A stretch of 64,000 nucleotides of DNA from Candidatus Nitrososphaera gargensis Ga9.2 (GTDB lineage Archaea; Thermoproteota; Nitrososphaeria; Nitrososphaerales; Nitrososphaeraceae): contig NC_018719.1 in assembly GCF_000303155.1 (NCBI RefSeq), positions 868,001 through 932,000 of the forward strand, read 5' to 3'. This document shows positions 41,097 to 63,449 of this stretch, one piece after another (position 1 is the stretch's first letter; every line of letters begins with the position of its first letter). The position numbers were made by a program, and so were the translations under genes. The notes below the pieces were generated by a model. It made no database searches. It had not been told where the DNA came from and saw only the letters and a list, made by a program, of their open reading frames with translations.

Positions 41097-41170
41097 GGGC
41101 CCATAGCTCAGCCTGGCAGAGCGACCGGCTCATAACCGGTCGGCCAGGGGTTCAAACCCCCTTGGGCCCA
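41097..41170 (+). tRNA. tRNA with CAT anticodon (Met, or Ile after modification)
   Basis: Acceptor GGGCCCA/TGGGCCC, D-stem GCTC/GAGC, anticodon stem ACCGG/CCGGT around CTCATAA, T-arm AGGGG-TTCAAAC-CCCCT. It is elongator Met or the Ile tRNA that receives agmatidine; these cannot be separated by eye. The discriminator A is at 41170 and CCA is not complete in the genome. Its 3' 20 bases plus one serve as the attachment site of the element that follows. Confidence 0.93.
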
Positions 41171-41301
41171 CCTTTTACTTGGGTTCAAATACACGGTCAG
41201 CATACGATGCTGACGTAGCAAAAGTGAATACGCTGTCCACCGGCGTGATACGAATCCAGAACGATGCGATGGAAAAAGAACTAGGAGGACTGGTTCAGTA
41301 A

Positions 41302-41778
41302 TTGCCTGCAAAACTATCCACCACCGTGGCAAAGATCGCACTCGTTCCGAACAAGGTCAATGCTGGCTTGATAAGGGAGTACCATCGCTATCTTCGAGAA
41401 TGGCGCATCAGAGCGCCACCAGAACAACGCCCTTAAAGCAGTGCTCGCCTATGCGAACCACCTAGGCCGGAGCACGACGTTCTTTGAAATAAAAAGAAGA
41501 GACCAGATAATTGCATACCTAGACCGATTCGTAAAGAGGGAAGAGGAAGATCCTGAAAAGAAATGGATAACAACCTGGAATGACACATGCCATAGAATCA
41601 AGCACCTATTTCGTTGGCTTTACTGCCAGCGAGGCAGGGAAGAAACCATCCCGCCCTCAGACTGGGAGACACCTGAATTTGTGAAAATCAAGGACAAGAA
41701 GACTAAGCGCCTAAGCCCTTATTCAGAGACTGAGATTTGGGACAAAGACGAGCTCTTGACGATAGTCAAATACGAGCC
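41302..41778 (+). pseudogene. Integrase remnant, N-terminal part, one frameshift, 3' truncated
   Basis: From TTG 41302 the frame reads LPAKLSTTVAKIALVPNKVN and LIREYHRYLRE. A shift near 41398 leads into NGASERHQNNALKAVLAYANHLG and continues to DELLTIVKYEP. This is the core-binding region of thaumarchaeal tRNA-targeting tyrosine recombinases (ITTWNDTCHRIKHLFRWLY, SPYSETEIWDKDEL). It stops where the catalytic domain should start and runs into polymerase sequence near 41778. AGGAGG lies at 41284. The catalytic residues are lost. Confidence 0.75.
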
Positions 41779-43365
41779 CATTATGGTGATGGGAATGCAT
41801 GGAATATTGCTATTAATTATGTGACAAGTGACAGTAAAATCTGGTATGCTTTAGCAGATGTCATAGCCAGCAAACTTCTCAATAGGGGTAAAGTTCCAAA
41901 AATAGTCCAAGCCATCAGGTTTAAGCCCGTAGGAAAGCAGTCAGCAATGCAAGAGATCAATATCCTCGGAAAAGAGATTGATCCTTACAAAGATAATCTG
42001 TTCAAAGTCCTTATTGAGTATAGAAAGGAGCTGCAACAACAGTGTACCAATTGCAATGATGAAGGACAAAAAGTTCTCTTGGATAAGAAGCAGAAGTGTA
42101 TCAAAACTATCGCCAACGCAACATGTTATGGCATATTCATTGAGATAAATACCAAGTCGGAGGAATCAGATGTTGCAGCTTATGGTTTATCTACAATCCA
42201 TTGCCATGCGGGAAAGACAGAAGAGTTCGGGTATTTCTCTAATCCACTGGTAGCCACCTTTATTACCTCTGGGGCAAGACTTGTGCTTGGCGCGGTAGAA
42301 GCGATTATCTCCAAGCACGGAGCATCGCACGCTTTTTGTGACACTGACAGTATGGCAATTCCTCCACAATACAGAGATTCAGCAATTCTTCAAACCACTG
42401 AACCCATATGGAATCGATATGGACATGTTCAAAGTAGAGGAATGCACGGATAAGAAATCAGGAAAAAATATCCATTGGAAAACGTATGGTTCGCTGGAAT
42501 ATCATCCAAGAGGTACGTCATTTACCAAAAATATGAACATAATGATAATCTCAAGATACTCAAAGCATCCTCACACGGCTTGAAGCATCTTCTTAACCCG
42601 TTTCCATGTACAGGGGATGATAACACGTGGCATGAACAGTTATGGATCGATATACTAAATCATCACCATGGCAAAGTATCATTTGAGGAACTTAATGAAA
42701 AATACGGTAACGCCTATGCCATGTCCGAGCTAGTGATATCTACAACCAATGTGATGCGTCGGTTTGATCGACTTAACAAAGGCAGGAGCTACAGTAAAAA
42801 GATAAAGCCATTCAACTTCTGCATAGTGGGCGTAGGAAACATAGCCGATAATGAAACTGGCGAAGTTATCAAACCTGTATCCCCCTATAGAAAAGACGCG
42901 TACCAATGCGCTTTTGATGAATTCATTGATTATAACAGCAAGAAAACCTTAAAGGGTCAAAAATATTGGCGGCAGTTCAACGACTATTTCTGGGAATATC
43001 TAAACCATCCTGAAGCCAAATTTGATGGGGATACTGGAGTTCTATCAAGAAAGCATGTCAAAATATCATCGGTAGTTCATATCGGAAAGGAAAGTAATGA
43101 GCTTGACGATACGGAGGTTCTAGGAATAGGAAAGGAGACCTACACCACGTATGTAAGTTATGTCGAGCTGATAATGCAACATAGAGAACTAATACTTAAT
43201 CTAAGACCTAAAGACGCTGCACCGTTTGGAATAATGAAAGAAGTGCTGAGAAATGTCAAGAGGTCTATAATGAACAAGACTTTATGGAGGTTATCTCGAA
43301 AAACAAAGGTCAGGTTGCTAAAGATAATTGAGCGTCATCTCTATACCCCAATGACAAGAAGGTGA
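41779..43365 (+). pseudogene. Family-B DNA polymerase fragment, two frameshifts
   Basis: Frame 1 begins inside the palm (WNIAINYVTSDSKIWYALAD). It carries KTIANATCYG, the motif B lysine helix, and HAFCDTDSMAI, the motif C catalytic Asp pair. A shift near 42365 moves to PLNPYGIDMDMFKVEE. A second near 42470 moves to ENVWFAGISSKRYVIY and KASSHGLKHLLNPF of the thumb, which runs to TGA 43363-43365. The exonuclease domain and motif A are missing at the 5' side. The type resembles polymerases of plasmids and viruses rather than the chromosomal PolB. Confidence 0.75.
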
Positions 43366-43409
43366 GAGTGTTACAAGCATTTGATGGTGTGATGAAGCTC
43401 CATCTTATT

Positions 43410-43556
43410 TTACAATTCTACCAATGATTTTCTTTCTGTATATTCCCGGTGTCCTGTCATGGCCTTGTGCTGAATAACTTCGTAAGTGGAGAAGAACATG
43501 CTTTTGCAGGTTCTGCAAATGTAAGCAGTTCCTACTTCTTCAGACGTACCATTCAC
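43410..43556 (-). CDS. Small C2H2-like zinc finger protein
   Basis: The 48-residue frame from GTG 43556 contains YICRTCKSMFFSTYEVIQH and then a second His after six residues, a Cx2Cx12Hx6H finger. The frame is open 17 to 20 codons upstream without another standard start, so the N-terminus is uncertain. A TTTATAA box lies near 43607-43613. Single-finger proteins like this are frequent in archaeal plasmids and viruses. Confidence 0.5.
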   Translation of the reverse strand: MNGTSEEVGTAYICRTCKSMFFSTYEVIQHKAMTGHREYTERKSLVEL

Positions 43557-43695
43557 CAGAACTCTAACCCTGGCAGTGCGAATATTTGAGGTCGGTGAAG
43601 AGATGTTATAAATAAAATATGTAAAGAATTGTTAGAGTAACGTTCACTAGCTACTTTATATATTTATGACCAGATGAGGAAAAATTGCACCATGA

Positions 43696-44064
43696 ATGAA
43701 GGACAACGGTTCTCAAGAAAATATTCACGAAATAATGGCTCATGCAGAACTAGATTTGCAATCGATCAAAAGGGCAATTGGCGAAACAACGCTAAAGGAA
43801 AGTCTTATCTCGCGTGACGATAACTATCACCGCAAAATCGACTGGAATGTTGCAAAAAGATTCCTGAATATCATCTACCTCCATGGGCCTATCAGAAAGA
43901 CGCGCTTGGCCATGAAAACGGGAGTAAATTCTACTACCTGCACAAAGTATGTCACTTGGCTTATAGAAGTTGACTGGATCGATGTTAATGACTGTGATGA
44001 ATTCAGATTGACTCAAGCCGGCCTAGCAGTATCCAAGCGGATTAATTCAGAAGACAATGCATGA
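43696..44064 (+). CDS. Winged-helix DNA-binding protein of the integrated element
   Basis: 122 residues, ATG 43696. The C-terminal two thirds form a winged helix: WNVAKRFLNIIYLHGPIRKTRLAMKTGVNSTT is the helix-turn-helix and DEFRLTQAGLAV the wing. The N-terminal 40 residues are charged and helical. A TATATATTT box about 30 nt upstream (43656-43664) suits the start. It is one of the few unbroken genes in the element and may regulate the divergent or following genes. Confidence 0.7.
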   Translation: MKDNGSQENIHEIMAHAELDLQSIKRAIGETTLKESLISRDDNYHRKIDWNVAKRFLNIIYLHGPIRKTRLAMKTGVNSTTCTKYVTWLIEVDWIDVNDCDEFRLTQAGLAVSKRINSEDNA

Positions 44065-44161
44065 TGCATAAGTAATTCTTCTAGTTAATTTTTGCATATC
44101 ATACGAGACCTACTGTACGCTGAGCCAGCCTTATTAACAAAATTACGTATTTGACTGGCCA

Positions 44162-47100
44162 ATGGAAAAAGAAGAAAGGTCGAGTGTAATTACACGAAAG
44201 TTAGTTCTTGCATTTGCATGCATGGCTTTGTTAGCATTTTCTCTACCTTCAAGCTTAATTAAGATGGATGCTTCTGGTCAGAATTCTACATCTTCTGATC
44301 AATCTGCAAATAATACTTCTACAAGCAGTTCTGAAGAACAATCAGCAGATAACAGTTCATCTTCTAGTAATTCAACGAACAATAACGATACCTCGACTCA
44401 GAATGGTGAAGAACAGGAATCACAGAATGCCACTGCATCATCTGAAAGTGTCAACAATAATTCTACTGACACGTCAACCCAGAATGAACAATCATCAGAA
44501 GCTGCAGGTCATCAGTCATCATCTGGAAATGCTAATGTTACATCAAGCAATGCTACTTCTACAGCCACATCTTCTAACAGTACAAATATCGAAAGTGAGC
44601 AGCAATCATCAACTCAGAATGTAACTTCAACAGAAATAGTGTCTAATATTACATCTACATTGATACCAATGCAAAATACTACTTCATTAGTAACTATCTC
44701 CGGCGAGCAATTTGTACTGGCTGATAGCAAAATAACTAGATCATTTTCCTACCCACTGTTAGAATTCAATGGAGAGATTGCAGCAGAACTTACCGTTACT
44801 TTGACATGGGACACTGATGGCACTACCAAAGTTAAAGATAACAGGGGATATAGCTATACCATTAGCATTCCTGAATTACAGGGTGCTTTCTCGCTATGGT
44901 ACAACAGCACCCACGTAGACCAAAGAGTAGTAGGACCAGAATTGCAGTATGACGTTTATTGGACTGCGGTAGAAGGTGGAAATGGATACGTTGACAGATA
45001 CAAGTACACGATTGCGGGAACCAGTATTAATGGAAGCATAATTTCATTTGTAGTTGACGGTGGAAAGTATGACAAAATAGATGATGATAGATTATTTGTT
45101 GGACAGCCAGCTTCTGTTGATATTGATGCATCAACTTTAGACCCTGCATTGGATTGGACTCCGAAAGGTGTCAGGAATGATCAGACTTCTGCAACAAATG
45201 AGGGAAGAAATGATAAAGAAGGCGGATTAGAACTCGACTGGTCTGATGCAATCGCGTCAGGCCATAATATGGTCTTTGATCAATCAAATTCTACGCTTAG
45301 AATACCAGTCGATAAGTGGTTTATAATAGATCCAACAGTTGTAGCTACCACAGCACAAACATTGTCCCCACCCTCGAATTCGGCTTTTGAGGGTGAAAGA
45401 AGGTTAATAACTACCAACAATACGAACACTGACCTCACTACTGTAAATGCATTCTACTATGATGGTTCGAACATTGTCTACCGGACCTCTACGGACATGG
45501 GTCACACATGGAGCGCTTCTGCTGTCTCTACAGGGTCTGGCGTTCTGGCAGCTGACACGTCAAGGTGGTCGGTAATAACAACTACGATAGATAGCACGCA
45601 GTATGTTTCCCTACTATATTGGAAACCTGCTGGAACAAACATGGAGTTCTATGCAAAGCGTGGTACCGTAAACAGCGACGGCAGCATATCTTGGAGCAGC
45701 CCAATATTGCTAGGATATACTTGGGCTAACTCTGATGTATGTGGAAGTGGTAGCGCGTGTGGTGGTGTGACTACAGCTGCAGATGTTAATGGCACTATTT
45801 ATGCTGCCTTTACTTGGCTTTCTGGCGGTGCCACCGATTATTCCATGCAGATAATGAAATCGACCGATGGAGGATTGAATTGGTCCACTTCAATGAACCA
45901 AATGTATCCTGTCAGTAGCTCAAGACCTGCAATGGCACTAGCAACTCTTAATTCAACGAAGATGTTGTTTGTTTATGCCAAGTATGAGAGTGCGAGCCTC
46001 TTTTACAAGGTCTTTGATGGCAGCGCATGGGGATCCGAACAAACCCAATCTAGCGTGGGTATGACCACAAACACATTCAAGCAGCTTTCCGCCATGAGCA
46101 ACACTACATCGGCCGTTTATGTAGCATATACGAATGTGACTAGCACTGCAGGCGGTATCCTGAAAATAGCGGCATTTTCGGAAGAAGGGAGCTTTATCGC
46201 CAGTGAGACAGCAGATAATACTCTTAGACATTACTTGCCTGATATTCTGCGAGGTTCTAACGATGACATAATCATAAACTCATTAGCAGATGGGAAAGTA
46301 TACAATACACGGAAAGCTAATGGAGTTTGGGAACCACCATTTGACCCGTATGGCACAACATTCGATTCACCAAATCAACTTACAGCTACTAATTTCCACA
46401 TGGGAGAACCGGGAGCCCTCTGGATTGAGGGTACCTCTTCGCCATATAATATTGTGTTTGGGCACATGCATCATGGCGTAGTAGGTAAGAGTAGTGCACA
46501 GACGTCGCCGCAGTTATCGGACTATTATGAAGGTGAAAGGAGGGTCTTTAGTTCAAAGGGTGGGACAAAATACGCCTTCTTCTATGATGGTTCGAATATA
46601 GTCTATACGAAATCGTATGATAGCGGACACACATGGAAAGGAACATCCACTTCTACCGGGTCAGGCGTGCTAGCAAGCGACAGCTTTAGGTGGACTATAG
46701 CGACTACCATGGTATCTGGTACCTAGTATGTGGTTATTTTATACTGGACTCCTGCCGGCAGCAATATGAATTTCTACGCCTTGCGGGGTACAGTTACAGA
46801 TACCGATATCACATGGAACAGTCCTGTTCTGCTAGGCTACACATTTGCCAATTCAGATGCTTGTGGAAGCGGCGGGGCATGCGCTGCTGCAGTGGCAGCG
46901 ACTGATACAGATGCCAATATCTATGCTGCATTTAGATACAGGTCTGGTGGATCATCCACTTACTCATACCAGATTATGAAGTCCACAGATGGTGGGCTCA
47001 ATTGGTCTGTTTCACTTTCCCAGGTAGACAATGTAAGTAACAACAGAATTGTGATGGCACTGGCCCCGCTAACGTCTGGTAAAATGCTATTTGCCTATGC

Positions 47101-48070
47101 CTTATACGAAAGTCCTAACTTGCAGTATCGGGTCTTTGATGGGACATCGTGGGGGTCAGTGCAGACTGCTAGCTCTACTAACATGGGCACTAATACCATA
47201 AAACAAATTTCGGCAGATAGCATAAACAGCACAAAGACAGCGTACGTTGCGTATCTCTCAAGTGGCAACTCTGGCTCATTGTATGTGGCCAGATTTGCTA
47301 ATACTACGGGCGCATTCGAAGGAAACGAAACCGCCACGACATCGGGAAGCCATCAGTTGCCCTCCATTACCATATCATTCGATGACATAATACACATCTA
47401 TACGGTATCAAGTGGAAAGCTGTATGAAACACGAAAGAATGCTAGCGGATGGCAGGCACCCGTAACTCCTTATGGTGACACATTCTATTCAATAAACGAG
47501 CTTACTTCTCAGATAAGCGGATTCGAATCAGAGGGGGTCTTTTGGAGAGAAGGCTCAAGTGCACCTTATACGCTGAAGTATGACGGACGATTCTTCGGAA
47601 TAGGTGGCGTAATCTGTTGGCAATATATCAGCAATAGCCAACACTGCTCTGATAGCAAACGATTAGGATCTGGTACAGTTAAGGTAGAAACGCCCGATCC
47701 TCAAAGAAGCTATTGGGTAAAGAAGAAGGCTTGTGGATGGGTCTTTAAGGTCAAATGCGTCAACACTAGCGTTTTTGTACAATATCCGTCGACTTTCACA
47801 GAAGGTGGCAGAACCTACAACTTCGTTTCAGGATATGTGGTGGTCACAGCGGCGCATCCGTTGGTGTATCAGCAGTCCAAGTTCTGGACGGGAGGAAATT
47901 CCAAGATTTTCAAATTCTATGATGTACCCAGAGAGTCGCTGCTTGGGTGGGATATGCAAGTCACAGTAAGTACAATTCTCGTATACGAATCGAGCTGTGG
48001 ATGCAGAATAAGCGGCAAGCTGTACACGCATGTCATGATTTTGTATAAAGGATATGATAAGACAAAATAA
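44162..48070 (+). pseudogene. Giant secreted beta-propeller protein, split by one in-frame TAG
   Basis: One frame of 1302 codons is interrupted only by TAG at 46724-46726. A signal peptide (about residues 12-35) is followed by a 160-residue Ser/Thr/Asn/Gln-rich stalk and a beta domain. Then come two tandem repeats of about 365 residues, each with Asp-box motifs (STDMGHTWS, STDGGLNWS; SYDSGHTWK, STDGGLNWS) and paired CGSG-x2-C cysteines. A Cys-containing C-terminal domain ends it. At the stop, repeat 1 has TQYVSLLYW (codon CAG) and repeat 2 has T-stop-YVVILYW, so Gln became amber. The protein may mediate attachment to surfaces or cells. Confidence 0.8.
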
Positions 48071-48098
48071 TAATCAGACAAGTTGCTGACGGATCGGA

Positions 48099-48641
48099 TT
48101 AATCGATTATTTTTAGAAATACCCCTCTTGAAGCCACACCAACTGTAGCGGGGTTGACGCTTCCTGAGGGCATCACCTTAATTGTCCTTCTCAGCTCAAC
48201 AGGCAGATCCAGAGGAATCGTCACTTTCATATTGATAGTTCTTATCACCCTATCGTTTAGTCGAACAAAGCGATGTATATTCGTAAAGGATACCAGATTG
48301 GCAGTATTAAAGAATAGAGCTCTGTCATATGCTTCGCCTGATTCGCATTGATAGGCTTTTTGCAGCAATTCTTCCTGCGATAATGTCTTCGAAAGTTTTA
48401 ATAGCTCGCAACTATCTGCCGCGCGCATTCTTAACGTCACGGCCTTGGGATTGTTCCTGCCGTCATCTCTATGCACATAGATAGCTTTTATTGGTATTTC
48501 TAAAGATTCGCCAACATGAACTTCTATGATAGATTCGCCGCCACTGAGAAATACCGTAGACTGGGTACTCCAGCCAAATTCTCCTATAGGATAAGTATCA
48601 TCTTTTATCCACGTTTCCCAAGGCTTTTCACGCGGAATCAA
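48099..48641 (-). CDS. Uncharacterised beta-rich protein
   Basis: 180 residues, ATG 48641. No signal peptide or membrane helix is seen. Strand-forming segments dominate (STVFLSGGESIIEVHVGESLEIPIKAIYVH, NMKVTIPLDLPVELRRTIKV), with a helical middle (LSQEELLQKAYQCESGEAY). It is convergent with the giant secreted gene and inside the element. I do not recognise a family; it could be a structural or accessory protein of the former mobile element. Confidence 0.55.
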   Translation of the reverse strand: MIPREKPWETWIKDDTYPIGEFGWSTQSTVFLSGGESIIEVHVGESLEIPIKAIYVHRDDGRNNPKAVTLRMRAADSCELLKLSKTLSQEELLQKAYQCESGEAYDRALFFNTANLVSFTNIHRFVRLNDRVIRTINMKVTIPLDLPVELRRTIKVMPSGSVNPATVGVASRGVFLKIID

Positions 48642-49185
48642 TTCTTAATGATGTAATGCGCTACCGTTACCATTAAGCATTATGATCATGATGATAATCT
48701 AATAACTGTTGACAGGCTTCTGTCAAATCTACGTCGGATGGTTAACTATTGAGATGTGACGGCATCCGACGACAACTTGACAACACCCGCAGCCTGCAAG
48801 ACTTTTAAAGCTCACCAAGCCATTCGAGGATTTATGGGATACACAAACTCCAAACAAGAGAACGAGCTTTCGAATCCCTCTCCCTGTATGATATCATTCA
48901 TAGTTTTGACTAAAAGGATGTAAACTGCATAAGGTTTAAAGCTAGGCATGCGAACCCATCTATATGCAAAATTCAAACCCCCTTGGGCCCACTTTCTTAC
49001 CTTGGACATTCATCCCATCTTGTGGACAAAAATTCCTTCATATCGACATGATGCTTCTTTTCAGAAAATTCGATATTCGACTATAAAGCGATGGCTGTGC
49101 CGCGTGATAAGGTATCTAGCTACATTACACTGAAATATGGCTAATCAAACCTTTCAGACTCTTGTCAGATAATAATTCTATTAAT
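48642..49185. other. Gene-free stretch carrying the right attachment site
   Basis: The attR copy of the tRNA 3' end is at 48972-48992 and marks the right end of the integrated element. Around 48737-48773 there is a short inverted repeat (GTCGGATGG ... CATCCGAC). I see no gene. Confidence 0.6.
48972..48992 (+). repeat. attR, 21-nt copy of the tRNA-Met 3' end
   Basis: Identical to 41151-41171, covering T-loop, T-stem 3' side, acceptor 3' side and two to three further bases. The rest of the tRNA is absent upstream, so it is not a tRNA gene. Confidence 0.9.
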
Positions 49186-49284
49186 GTGAAATTCTGCAAG
49201 GCTTGTAGCCTTTATTTTTTCATAACTGAAAATCAGGATGGCAAAAAAGTGCGCTGTACCCGGTGCTTTGGATTGATAGACTGA
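49186..49284 (+). CDS. Zinc-ribbon microprotein, 32 residues
   Basis: The frame from GTG 49186 to TGA 49282-49284 has two CxxC pairs, FCKACSLYFF and VRCTRCFGLI, separated by 18 residues, a compact zinc ribbon. The only in-frame start is GTG. It lies just outside the integrated element. Function unknown. Confidence 0.45.
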   Translation: MKFCKACSLYFFITENQDGKKVRCTRCFGLID

Positions 49285-49594
49285 TCTTGCCTGCCATGTG
49301 TTATTATTGTAAAAAATATCATTCAGAAAAATAAGCCTAGATATACTATTATTTCTTCCACAAGCTTATGCCAAAAAGCGATGGCGATAAAGCAGTGAGA
49401 TATTACAAAGTTCTAATACTGATGAACGAAATGGTCGTTTTTACTTAGAGAAAATAATGCCATAATGCCCTGCTAAAGCAGCATAATAGGACGGTTGAAG
49501 AATTGAGTGAACGTATCTGCAAAATCAGCGTCGACACATCTATAGCCTGCGCCATTCGAGGTTCTGACAGGGCAGTTTATTTGTCGGTAATGTT
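49285..49594. other. 310-nt stretch with no convincing gene
   Basis: The only frame of note is 49368-49448, 26 codons with a charged start (MPKSDGDKAVRYYKV). It is too short to judge. Confidence 0.4.
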
Positions 49595-49963
49595 ATGTCT
49601 ACGTTAACGTCGAAAAGAACCCTGTTGGTAGATGATGAACAAGATGTATTGACTGTTTTCAAGAAAGCACTAGGATCGAAAGGCTACGAGGTGGATGCTT
49701 TCAACGATCCAACAAAGGCGCTGATTGACTTCGCGCCCGGCCGCTATGATATTGTGATTACAGATGTAAAGATGCCTTAGCTAAGCGGCTCTGAATTATA
49801 TGACAGAATACGCAAGCAAGATGAAAAGGTTAAGGTGTTTTTCTTATCAGGCATTGACATTTACGAACACGATCCCAAATTTGCATTCTCAAACGTTGAT
49901 CCCAAGATGTTCATTCACAAGCCGATCGGAATTACTGACTTGATCAAGACAATAGAAGCATGA
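49595..49963 (+). pseudogene. Response-regulator receiver protein interrupted by one TAG
   Basis: A stand-alone receiver domain of 122 residues in one frame from ATG 49595 to TGA 49961-49963. The acidic pair is in LLVDDEQDV, the phospho-acceptor Asp in DIVITDVKMP and the conserved Lys in FIHKPIG. TAG at 49778-49780 falls right after KMP, where many receivers have a short polar residue before x-G (here LSGSELYDRIR continues in frame). So it is one substitution away from intact. No histidine kinase is near. It is either a recent pseudogene or is read through. Confidence 0.8.
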
Positions 49964-50126
49964 ATGCATGCCCCTGTATTACTACACATATGCTGATTCA
50001 AGCTTTCCACAGACAGTTAAGGAACTGCTAGCAGCTAAAAAACATCTTGCATGTCTTCGCATCATCACAGCCATCAAATTATGTCTGCGGGTTCGAATCG
50101 CCTGACGACATCGTGAATCCACTTGC

Positions 50127-51191
50127 CTATTCGCCCTTTGTCGAATCTAAACCAACAGTCATAGCCATATAGAATCTTCCGTCTTCGCTAAACTTTAGCT
50201 TGTGCCCAGAATCGTTGACCAAGATCACGTCAGTAATCCCTGCAGGCAATTTGGCCTGATAGAGGCAGTATTCTCCGGCCTTGGATAGTTTCACTTCGTC
50301 ATCACTCCCCCTTACGTTAGCTATTTCTATAGCCTTGCCAAGGTCAACTTCCCTAAGCCTTGGAATGGACCCGGCAACTAGTTTGACCTGTGGTTCTTCG
50401 TCGTTATTGCATGGGACTTTTAGCTCAACTTCTGCATGTCCCTTTGTCGTGCTATATGGTGCCAAATGAGCCAAGATGATGTAGTCATCTTTCTTGAGGT
50501 CGTCAGTTATTTCCTTGCTAAATGTGAAAACGGGGCTGGCTTGATTGCTGTCTCCCAAATCGTTATCTTGGCTGCTGGTGCTCGACGATGCTACAGGCTC
50601 GTTCACCACTACCTGATCAACTGATATAGTGGTAGTATTGGTCATGTTTCTCTTCAATTCAGTGATCGATTGGTTTATCGAGCTAATAGTAGTTTGCAGT
50701 TGATTTAGAAGATCAGGAGGCATCGTTGCTGCTGCAATACTATTCTGCTGCGTCGCGTCGCTCAAAGTGGTATTCGCTGTTGCTGTAGCCTGAGTTTCGT
50801 TTTGTTGTTGGTTCAGTTCCTGCGATGGCAATTGCTGACCTGTTCCAGTTTCGTTCGCTGCAGCACTTGTGTCATTGCTGGCACCTGAAGTCAAGTTGTC
50901 AAGAACCGGGTATAATTCAAACAGCTCAAACGTAGTCAGATTTTCCCAGTCGCTCTCGCTGGGCATTGCAGTATTATTGGTGCTGTTAAGGCTACTGGTT
51001 GTTGCTGTAGTGTCATTAGTAGCACTTGAAGAAGCATTAGCTCCGCTTGTGTCGTTATAATAATTGACAGGACCTTGGGTACTAACGCTGTTGCTAGACC
51101 CGATCGTCGGAAGAGCGATAGATAGCAACAATACTAAAGCGCTGACTACGGCAACAAAAGTAATTATCATTTTTGAAAACATTTCTGACAT
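50127..51191 (-). CDS. Secreted Asn/Ser/Thr-rich protein with a folded C-terminal domain
   Basis: 354 residues. A signal or anchor helix (about residues 8-30) is followed by a low-complexity Thr/Asn/Ala/Ser region full of N-glycosylation sequons. A short coiled coil (DLLNQLQTTISSINQSITELKRN) comes next. The final 130-residue beta-rich domain has FTFSKEITDDLKKDDYIILAHLAPY and two Cys (KVPCNNDEE, EYCLYQ) that may form a disulfide. It is probably a surface protein. No family name can be given. Confidence 0.65.
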   Translation of the reverse strand: MSEMFSKMIITFVAVVSALVLLLSIALPTIGSSNSVSTQGPVNYYNDTSGANASSSATNDTTATTSSLNSTNNTAMPSESDWENLTTFELFELYPVLDNLTSGASNDTSAAANETGTGQQLPSQELNQQQNETQATATANTTLSDATQQNSIAAATMPPDLLNQLQTTISSINQSITELKRNMTNTTTISVDQVVVNEPVASSSTSSQDNDLGDSNQASPVFTFSKEITDDLKKDDYIILAHLAPYSTTKGHAEVELKVPCNNDEEPQVKLVAGSIPRLREVDLGKAIEIANVRGSDDEVKLSKAGEYCLYQAKLPAGITDVILVNDSGHKLKFSEDGRFYMAMTVGLDSTKGE

Positions 51192-51318
51192 AGAGGTTTG
51201 AGGTAATAGAATTTATTGCGCACGTATCTGATTTCCGGCTAGCAATCTTATTTTTTAGTTTTATAATTTTTACATGAATTTTCTATTTAGTATAATACTG
51301 CGCCACGCACTTGATTGA

Positions 51319-51462
51319 TTAGGCCATTTGAGCTTCGAATCTGGCGTCCTGTTTTGCTTTTCTTGGATAACCCTCTTTCCTCATCCTGTATGAGATGGCG
51401 ACCATAAAATAGATAAATATGATAGAGCCAATCGATACAGCTGCAATTTCCACAATATCCAT
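51319..51462 (-). CDS. Small single-helix membrane protein
   Basis: 47 residues from ATG 51462. One hydrophobic helix (VEIAAVSIGSIIFIYFMVAI) is followed by a strongly basic cytoplasmic tail (YRMRKEGYPRKAKQ). The orderly N-out, basic-in layout argues for a real microprotein. It lies 128 nt downstream of the secreted gene start in the opposite order, so it has its own promoter region. Confidence 0.5.
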   Translation of the reverse strand: MDIVEIAAVSIGSIIFIYFMVAISYRMRKEGYPRKAKQDARFEAQMA

Positions 51463-51628
51463 GCCTATAGCTGCGCAAAATATGATTTAAGCAGGCATTA
51501 GTTTTTGGACATTGATCGATTGCGAGTCCTAAATCGGGGAACCATGTCTGGTATCACTAGACAGGCGTTCTTGTATGTATTACTCTTTTTATGGTATTGG
51601 GGTCAATGATACACAACAGCTAGCTATC

Positions 51629-51823
51629 ATGACCCAAGGGAAAAAGCATGCGCCGTCTAAAACTGGCGACCATAACTTGGATGTCGAGAGAATGCAATAT
51701 GAAAAGGATAAAGAAAACATTCCAGCCACAGTAACGGATTATGTAAACAAAGAGAAATAGACCGATGACGTTTATTCTGCAATGGGAAAGGAGGATGAAA
51801 AGCCTTCCAAAGGTAAGCACTGA
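51629..51823 (+). pseudogene. Small hydrophilic protein interrupted by one TAG
   Basis: From ATG 51629 (MTQGKKHAPSKTG) the frame runs 43 codons to TAG 51758-51760. It then continues in the same frame for 20 more sense codons with the same Lys/Glu/Asp-rich character (TDDVYSAMGKEDEKPSKGKH) to TGA 51821-51823. The composition on both sides agrees, so the TAG looks like a single change inside a 64-residue hydrophilic protein. There are no homologues in the window to confirm it, so the call is tentative. Confidence 0.45.
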
Positions 51824-52099
51824 TCGAATTGCTGGATGTATAATCCTCCGACATAAAATAAACTATGGGTCTTTTAGCACGAGCTGAAGGCTCCTGAAAA
51901 CAACAGAAAAGATGACGACTAGAAGTATTTCTTGACAGAATCGTAAACTAGAACATTTGTTAGTTTTATCTGATATGATCTAGTCGCGTACTTTACCTCT
52001 ACAATTGTTAAATTCTATGATAAACCGCCATCTTGCCGGTGATGCAGGATCAACCACAGAACCAACAATAAGCTGACGCGTCGTATTGCGATTGTAATT

Positions 52100-62699: not shown

Positions 62700-63449
62700 C
62701 TATTTCAATGCATACAGCTTGTAGCCAGAGCCGCTTTTCTCATCGACATACGTCCACCTTGCCGGGTCTATGTTGATCTCTACAAAATCATCCTTGTTAG
62801 CCAACTTTTCATACAATGACTGTCCTATTACTAAATGCCACGCTTGGGCAAGAGGGTTCATTTTTGCCGCCATGCTAATGCTCAAGCCTACGATGTCTAT
62901 GTGCGATCGCTCGATGCTCTTGCCGTAAAGCACGACCTGTACGTCGCCATTGTCAACAGACATTTTCGCCCTTATCTCCGGCAGGCCGTGCGATCTCAGT
63001 TCTGGGTTGATGCATTGCTTGATAATTTCCTGCATGCTCTTTGCACACTCGATCGCGTTCCTGGATGCCTGGCTGCTGTCGTATTCTGCAGGAAAGAGCG
63101 CGATTACCGCATCGCCCACGTACTTCAAGACATAACCACCATACTCGGCAATTACGAGACTCATCTCCTGCGAAAATATGTGCAGTATGGTCGCAAACTT
63201 GTCGGGAGCAAGCGACATGCTCATCTTGGTCGAGCCGTCGATGTCGACATACAGTATCACGACGCTTATCTTTTGGTTGACCCGCCTTCTGAGGAACCTC
63301 TTGCACGATTCTGTGGAAAGGTCTATCTGTACGCCCTTGTCAAGCGTCTGGCGCACCCTTGTCTGGATTGAGTTAAAGTCACGTATGGGCGAGAGCAACC
63401 TGCATTTTGCAGCAAGCCAATGTGCCCTATGTATATCTTGCATTTGCAT
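62700..63449 (-). CDS. Class III adenylate/guanylate cyclase-like protein
   Basis: 249 residues. The cyclase homology domain covers about residues 55-235: VVILYVDIDGSTKMS has the first metal Asp, LKYVGDAVIALFP the second, and SHIDIVGLSISMAAKMNPLA is the nucleotide-binding segment. An N-terminal helical part of about 50 residues has no membrane segment. Whether it is an active cyclase and with which nucleotide cannot be told; the base-specifying Lys/Asp residues are not obvious. Confidence 0.85.
   Translation of the reverse strand: MQMQDIHRAHWLAAKCRLLSPIRDFNSIQTRVRQTLDKGVQIDLSTESCKRFLRRRVNQKISVVILYVDIDGSTKMSMSLAPDKFATILHIFSQEMSLVIAEYGGYVLKYVGDAVIALFPAEYDSSQASRNAIECAKSMQEIIKQCINPELRSHGLPEIRAKMSVDNGDVQVVLYGKSIERSHIDIVGLSISMAAKMNPLAQAWHLVIGQSLYEKLANKDDFVEINIDPARWTYVDEKSGSGYKLYALK

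Follow-up and report, generated by a model that had tools for sequence, protein, structure and literature searches.

Which mobile element was once inserted at the tRNA-Met gene of Candidatus Nitrososphaera gargensis Ga9.2, and where does the half polymerase that it still holds come from? The window analysed here is a stretch of 64,000 nucleotides (nt), positions 868001-932000 of a single-contig genome of 2,833,868 bases, and the locus in question is its interval 41151-48992. A sequence-only reading had taken this interval for the fossil of a virus or plasmid that carried its own family-B polymerase. We find that it is very likely the inactivated remnant of a cryptic integrated element, which used a tyrosine integrase at tRNA-Met and held a family-B polymerase (PolB) of casposon type. 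This is carried by the uniqueness of the end repeat, the integrase homology at the same tRNA, the arm motifs at both ends and the existence of complete sister elements. The sequence-only reading was right that the locus is tRNA-borne, integrase-delimited and decayed and has a family-B polymerase, but the polymerase falls in the casposon clade and our searches gave no evidence of a virus. The features that delimit the element and bear on its origin are the following, in window positions; G, C and L numbers are our handles for genomes, contigs and loci, and positions given elsewhere in kb or Mb are those of the genome unless the window is named.

41097-41172, plus strand: intact tRNA-Met (CAT), the integration target, found by ARAGORN; in relatives its neighbour is a TenA-like gene
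41151-41171, plus strand: left attachment site (attL), the T-arm/acceptor 3' half of tRNA-Met, 21 nt
41181-41191, plus strand: left arm motif GGGTTCAAATA, 10 nt past the tRNA end
41302-41788, plus strand: tyrosine integrase remnant, amino acids (aa) 1-165 of ~445, with a frame change near 41397 and the catalytic R...RH...Y region missing
41758-41788, plus strand: integrase/PolB fusion point, where the two homologies overlap in different frames
41758-43365, plus strand: casposon-type PolB remnant, C-terminal half (aa ~390-909 of 909), with a TAA at 42451
48952-48957, plus strand: right arm motif GAACCC, 18 nt before the AACCCC core
48972-48992, plus strand: right attachment site (attR), the second exact 21-nt copy of the tRNA tail

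End repeats and integrase

The repeat TTCAAACCCCCTTGGGCCCAC, 21 nt long, is exact at 41151-41171 and 48972-48992, so that the 3' end of the tRNA does recur 7.8 kb away as had been noticed from the sequence. No further copy with up to three mismatches was found in the window (0 matches in 100 shuffles), and no third copy with up to two mismatches in the whole 2.83-Mb genome. The sequence therefore exists at two places of the genome only and is not one of many tRNA tails, an objection that had been foreseen and that the genome-wide search removes.

The integrase remnant starts at 41302, just inside attL, reads inward and stops at ~41779, against relatives of 444-485 aa. It was correctly recognized beforehand: the profile match over 41302-41788 has an E value of 4.3e-55, and aa 1-165 are kept in comparison with full-length relatives. 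Its assignment to the tyrosine recombinases is based on weak Pfam and NCBIfam matches, on annotated haloarchaeal homologues and on an invariant R...RH...Y pattern. Pfam Phage_integrase was found in two of three integrase proteins, both times below the cut-off (E 0.0016 and 0.0071), and the sole match of a profile search in a structure database was a ribosomal zinc protein, reached through the C-terminal ribbon. Among 12 aligned relatives R181, R300-H301 and Y332 are invariant, residues that we take to be the tyrosine-recombinase active site. These catalytic residues are deleted in the window, where nothing is kept after aa ~165; the element is a fossil and no active member of its integrase family.

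Relatives of the 127-aa open reading frame (ORF) at 41441-41824 are present in 36 of the 300 genomes of the class, the strongest all coming from the same family. Four other genomes (G264, G276, G201, G238) carry this integrase at the same tRNA-Met, and a fifth tRNA-Met locus (G194) has a degraded integrase of this family. Members were absent by tblastn from 24 other polymerase or Nitrososphaera stretches, and a plasmid search returned distant haloarchaeal integrases only (22-26% identity). At the casposon locus of Methanosarcina sp. DH2 (L196), a relative of the thaumarchaeal integrase lies a few kb from the casposon polymerase.

Sister elements and anatomy of the attachment sites

Ten integrase loci besides the window were examined for end repeats, and eight are delimited by exact repeats of 17-33 nt that start just upstream of the integrase:

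G093, at tRNA-Arg: 31.5 kb
G070: 32.9 kb
G093_2475: 50.6 kb, with an extra 17-nt copy inside
G093_1314: 10.9 kb
G131: 24.3 kb
G135: 16.2 kb
G000 (the genome of the window), 2.157-2.182 Mb: 25.2 kb
G201, at tRNA-Met: intact integrase, with a 17-nt tail copy 34.9 kb away

The exact part of the repeat of the 25.2-kb element is 19 nt long, and a longer 61-nt stretch includes mismatches. The locus at 2,281 kb has a plausible 23-nt repeat but a distant integrase, and no convincing repeat was seen at the integrase locus at 377 kb. In G201 the reading frame of the integrase opens 7 bases past the end of tRNA-Met.

Both ends of the interval carry motifs of this family. On the left, GGGTTCAAATA stands exactly at +10 in all six integrase-bearing tRNA-Met loci, with 9-11 of its 11 bases (11/11 in the window); among 17 tRNA-Met loci in which no integrase was detected, one has 9/11 at +10, two have 8-9 at +9, these three being perhaps scars, and the rest have 8 or fewer. 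On the right, GAACCC precedes an AAyCCC core by 18 nt in the window, G201, G093_1314 and the 25-kb element of the same genome. The combination GAACCC-N18-AAyCCC occurs once in the window, at the distal repeat copy, with 0.01 expected. Other hexamers take this position elsewhere, namely GTTCCC in the tRNA-Arg element of G093 and in G070 and GGTCCC at the inner copy of G093_2475, the outer copy of which has no such core and is hence unscorable. Eight right ends of other members could be scored: three have the exact hexamer, three agree with it at 4/6 bases and two at 3/6. Arm motifs being present on both sides, the 7.8-kb interval seems to be bounded by true ends of an element of this integrase family.

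None of the eight delimited sister elements contains a casposon polymerase, Cas1, the casposon HNH gene or the giant-protein module described below. In the 25-kb element of the same genome, two small genes stand in one row with a PolB (Pfam E 9.7e-36) and a Rad51-like gene. As NitGar-E5 is described with a PolB, two small genes and an inactivated RadA (PMC6563490, available text), this gene set makes it very probable that the 25-kb element is NitGar-E5.

Some integrase or tRNA-tail loci may hold more than one element. A second, broken integrase copy follows directly after the attR of the 25.2-kb element, as in a tandem array (L281/L282/L287, G000 2,156.6-2,182 kb). Another integrase-like ORF, recognized by eye, lies right past the distal tail copy of G201 (L116/L163, G201:C33 39542-40861), which suggests tandem elements at that tRNA-Met. 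Three more tRNA-Met-like tail copies with 3 mismatches, at 105, 5976 and 8526 of L132 (G307:C26), are possibly an array of integrated elements.

The casposon-type polymerase

By tblastn, 41758-43329 corresponds to aa 390-909 of a 909-aa polymerase, with 46% identity and one TAA inside, and a reading of the frames showed a local pair of frame changes near 42390-42480. Pfam DNA_pol_B exceeds its cut-off on this remnant, and together with the tblastn stretch this confirms the family-B polymerase proposed from the sequence; a profile search in a structure database gave weak matches to DNA polymerases alpha and archaeal PolB. The remnant retains motif B and DTDS, and motif A (region of D326) and the exonuclease (D53) belong to the lost half; these motif names are those that we presume for the family.

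Relatives of the C-terminal piece occur in 30 of the 300 class genomes. Around 20 polymerases, a Cas1 cluster was present in 13 neighbourhoods, a helix-turn-helix (HTH)-like gene in 14 and an HNH-like gene in 13; Cas1 was confirmed by Pfam in two of them, and the HTH and HNH labels were given by eye and from papers, Pfam being silent on both proteins tested. The 79 PolB loci that we named extend from Nitrosopumilaceae, Methanosarcinaceae and other archaea to Alphaproteobacteria. At 67 of these 79, Cas1 is within reach; in 11 of the 12 others the contig extends upstream of the polymerase for about 3.2 kb at most, and in the last one (L206) the polymerase is broken.

A tree was made from the window sequence and those 75 of the 79 loci whose reading frame reaches at least 600 aa. 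The window is sister to eight Nitrosopumilaceae casposon PolBs with support 100/99, on a long branch (0.64), as expected of a decaying gene. By sequence, the polymerase remnant thus belongs to the casposon PolB clade. The viral, plasmid and casposon families with which it was to be compared are thereby reduced to the last, for the polymerase had no match at E<=0.001 in 50,697 phage records, none in 72,556 plasmids and none in a pattern scan of IMG/VR. Within the family, casposon-type PolB is found in 4 of 70 genomes, all of the same genus and all as fragments, and C-terminal scraps are dispersed in this genus (G135, G131, G143). The sole casposon-type PolB of G135 is a 217-aa ORF (L045, 9880-10533) matching aa 716-904, that is ~190 aa of the C-terminal part.

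The two remnants meet at a single point. Integrase homology ends at 41773-41788 and PolB homology starts at 41758-41761, in different frames, and ATACGAGCCC at 41770-41779 fits both proteins, which suggests that the fusion arose from one deletion at this short shared sequence (microhomology). The deletion would have removed the second half of the integrase, the intervening DNA and the first half of PolB, and would have joined integrase codon ~165 to PolB codon ~390. Both catalytic centres being lost, the remnant can therefore neither excise nor copy itself.

Comparison with casposon and virus hallmarks

Two true casposons at tRNA-Pro (L036, L037) show a target-site duplication (TSD) of 14 nt that takes in the final 4 nt of the tRNA and precedes inverted ends GGGGTAAAGA...TTTGACC, and a third (L042) has a 16-nt duplication at tRNA-Glu. 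No duplicate was found within the fetched stretches of four further tRNA-linked casposon-type loci (L035, L039, L040, L047); at L035 and L047 (tRNA-Glu) and at L040 (tRNA-Ser), starts resembling a terminal inverted repeat (TIR) follow the tRNA. A TIR profile built from five casposon ends, which score 40-47 on themselves, found no casposon TIR in the window, the best score being 12.7 overall and 9.8 within 41-52 kb of the window. The interval has no Cas1 either, and in the genome PF01867 is present at 285 kb and, broken, at 2,298 kb. The latter pieces were considered as a casposon relic and discarded, no match having been obtained there with casposon protein queries; recurrent short reading frames at L128 resemble, by eye, a CRISPR array. 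None of the seven ORFs of the interval is a capsid or packaging gene by PHROGs or Pfam.

Origin of the element and alternative explanations

According to the interpretation that we favour, a tyrosine integrase of the same family as that of the 25-kb element would have recombined an attachment core of the incoming element (attP), identical to the tRNA-Met tail, with the 3' end of the gene. This would have restored the tRNA and left a second tail copy 7.8 kb away. Before its decay the element, or a casposon nested in it, would have provided the casposon-type PolB with which it was copied. What remains of the interior would be a captured host module, made of a winged-helix regulator, a giant surface-type protein and its 180-aa partner, and since broken. 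The guanine-plus-cytosine (GC) fraction drops from 0.546 to 0.426 at the left end. Several points weigh against it. GC is unchanged at the right repeat, with 0.414 beyond and a low-GC tract that reaches ~52 kb of the window, so that the change of composition looked for at both ends was found at one. No empty site was found: for the right flank 48993-49594 the matches were no longer than 58 bases and came from 6 of the 69 other genomes of the family. In the integrase family itself, G093_2475 and the 377-kb locus depart from the simple repeat pattern, and the right hexamer is absent in G131 and G135, which carry the most distant integrases. Moreover, PolB could have come with a separate insertion instead of belonging to the integrase element.

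The last point leads to the alternative that differs from our interpretation in the origin of the polymerase only. A complete casposon, with Cas1, could have entered the integrase element, and a later deletion would have taken the left two thirds of the casposon along with the second half of the integrase, so that PolB was never used by the integrase element. We regard this as quite possible, at a little under even chances. Cas1 accompanies this PolB clade at 67 of 79 loci, and of the 12 exceptions 11 are at the edge of a contig. Furthermore, none of the eight sister elements has a PolB of this type, and nesting has been reported, of NitEve-E7 in NitEve-E6 and of casposons in Methanosarcina elements (PMC6563490). 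On the other hand, the right-hand casposon TIR was not detected downstream of PolB, although decay could hide one, and NitEve-E6, an integrase-type conjugative element with the same PolB type, is not described as a casposon in the available text of PMC6563490. A broader reshuffling appears unlikely: here only the ends would be element DNA, and the PolB fragment and the giant-protein module would have come later, by unrelated recombination at a tRNA-Met hotspot. The host type of this module, the PolB scraps scattered in the genus (G135, G131, G143) and the flank 3' of tRNA-Met, which differs in the 22 relatives compared, would agree with it, but the integrase and PolB remnants join at a single point, where their homologies overlap, as one internal deletion would produce.

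The two remaining explanations give the whole interval to another class of element. A provirus with its own polymerase is very improbable: an integrase together with a polymerase is, as a matter of general knowledge, common in proviruses, but the interval has no capsid, packaging or other viral gene and no PHROG structural match, and neither polymerase nor integrase was found in the phage and IMG/VR searches. A virus origin is thus left without support from phages, plasmids or IMG/VR. Least probable of all, and hardly credible, is that the interval is a degenerate casposon whose TSD would be the 21-nt repeats. The PolB type speaks for it, and related Nitrosopumilaceae casposons are also found at tRNA 3' ends. 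Their true TSDs, however, have 14-16 nt, share no more than the final ~4 nt with the tRNA and lead into GGGGTAwAGA... TIRs, while the repeat of the window has 21 nt, nearly all inside the tRNA, with integrase arm motifs in place of TIRs, and the family of the integrase remnant bounds elements that are not casposons. The reading of the repeat as a casposon TSD or TIR was rejected after comparison with genuine casposon ends.

Interior genes and flanks

Downstream of the polymerase remnant the interval holds three further genes:

43696-44064, plus strand: winged-helix protein (HTH_45, Pfam over cut-off), the first gene of the captured module
44162-48070, plus strand: giant repeat-bearing exported protein, broken by an in-frame TAG at 46724-46726
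48099-48641, minus strand: 180-aa protein with no family match, a homologue of which adjoins the giant-protein gene in G131

The giant protein reads as two in-frame ORFs, 44162-46726 and 46730-48070, parted by this one TAG, in agreement with the giant exported protein first proposed, the word exported resting on a hydrophobic N-terminus judged by eye. Of the two small DNA-binding proteins announced with it, the winged-helix protein was upheld by HTH_45, but the product of 48099-48641 matches no family. The giant-protein family is present in 4 of 70 genomes of the family, with multiple copies in each. A second, broken copy lies in the same genome at 2,306-2,309 kb, beside a winged-helix gene copy that is 69% identical. 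G131 has a homologue of the 48099-48641 gene adjacent to a giant protein of 1295 aa, and in G072 (L265) the distance between a giant-protein copy and a 40% relative of the winged-helix protein is 3.5 kb. The winged-helix gene beside the giant protein of G131 does not align with that of the window; the pairing of the two genes consequently rests on the copy in the same genome. No integrase of the window family was found in eight scanned giant-protein neighbourhoods of 16-20 kb, and a tRNA in one of them only. Together, winged-helix gene and giant protein are a module of host type, which both the genus and G072 have at places other than integrase loci; it was therefore carried or captured and is not a viral gene set.

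tRNA-Met adjoins a TenA-like gene, presumably rightly so named, in the relatives checked, and this gene is present in 18 of 20 genomes searched. DNA 3' of tRNA-Met differs between the window and 22 relatives compared, and among these relatives. A cyclase-type gene (labelled by eye) at 62700 of the window is 21.5 kb past the tRNA and sits nearer in G135 (8.1 kb) and G131 (5.7 kb), which suggests about 13-16 kb of extra DNA here, part of it accounted for by the 7.8-kb element. Beyond attR, 48993-52000 of the window is of low GC and poorly coding, with a CheY-like gene broken by a stop (49778), and may be an older insertion.

Relation to known elements and significance

We compared the locus with the available parts of four papers (PMC6563490, PMC4046053, PMC4104785, PMC8371274). 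The att sites of 74 surveyed elements have a median of 17 bp, and 39 of 68 lie in tRNA genes (PMC6563490, available text). With NitGar-E5 the window element shares integrase family, tRNA-tail-like repeats and genome; unlike it, it has shrunk to 7.8 kb and has a broken integrase, and its PolB comes from the casposon clade in place of the PolB/RadA operon type. It resembles Family 2 casposons (NitNCS1-C1, AciBoo-C1), as described in the available text, by its PolB of the Methanosarcinaceae/Nitrosopumilaceae casposon clade (PMC6563490, PMC4046053), a family label inferred from gene set and tRNA target and not from comparison with named references. It differs from them in having no Cas1, HNH, TIR or 14-nt TSD and in being bounded by integrase att sites. 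Like IgnAgg-E3 and ArcSul-E1 it combines a tyrosine recombinase with a PolB without Cas1, but these come from other archaeal lineages and other polymerase branches, a separation based on their description in the available text (PMC4104785).

The nearest precedent is NitEve-E6, which is tRNA-inserted, of the same genus and reported to hold a PolB like that of family 2 casposons, 41% identical to that of NitNCS1-C1; unlike the window element, it is the largest integrative and conjugative element of the survey, with conjugation genes (PMC6563490, available text). The only PolB match of G135 fits this 41% identity and, as it is the 217-aa ORF mentioned above, the PolB reported for NitEve-E6 may itself be a C-terminal remnant. 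A lineage of integrase-borne elements that used a casposon PolB for their replication, in which Cas1 was dropped or had never been present and of which NitEve-E6 would be a second trace, is conceivable, and we put it forward tentatively and with some doubt. The chimera of an integrase element and a casposon polymerase is uncommon, and the locus is a somewhat unusual chimera of known parts. The 7.8-kb remnant is not named in the available main text of PMC6563490, its supplementary element table being outside this statement, and our searches for papers on N. gargensis casposons or tRNA-Met integrases gave no account of it.

The locus is dead and has no immediate function. It is a case of a host gene module of surface type that lies within an integrated element, and the anatomy of its att sites (a tRNA-tail core, with GGGTTC at +10 for the left end and, for the right end, GAACCC 18 nt ahead of that core) can serve to delimit further elements of this integrase family, even decayed ones. 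It also connects, through a shared polymerase, two classes of mobile elements of archaea whose integration enzymes differ. If the proposed lineage is real, a Cas1-free "casposon" would have exchanged the machinery by which it integrates for a tyrosine recombinase whose attachment site is defined and has two arms.

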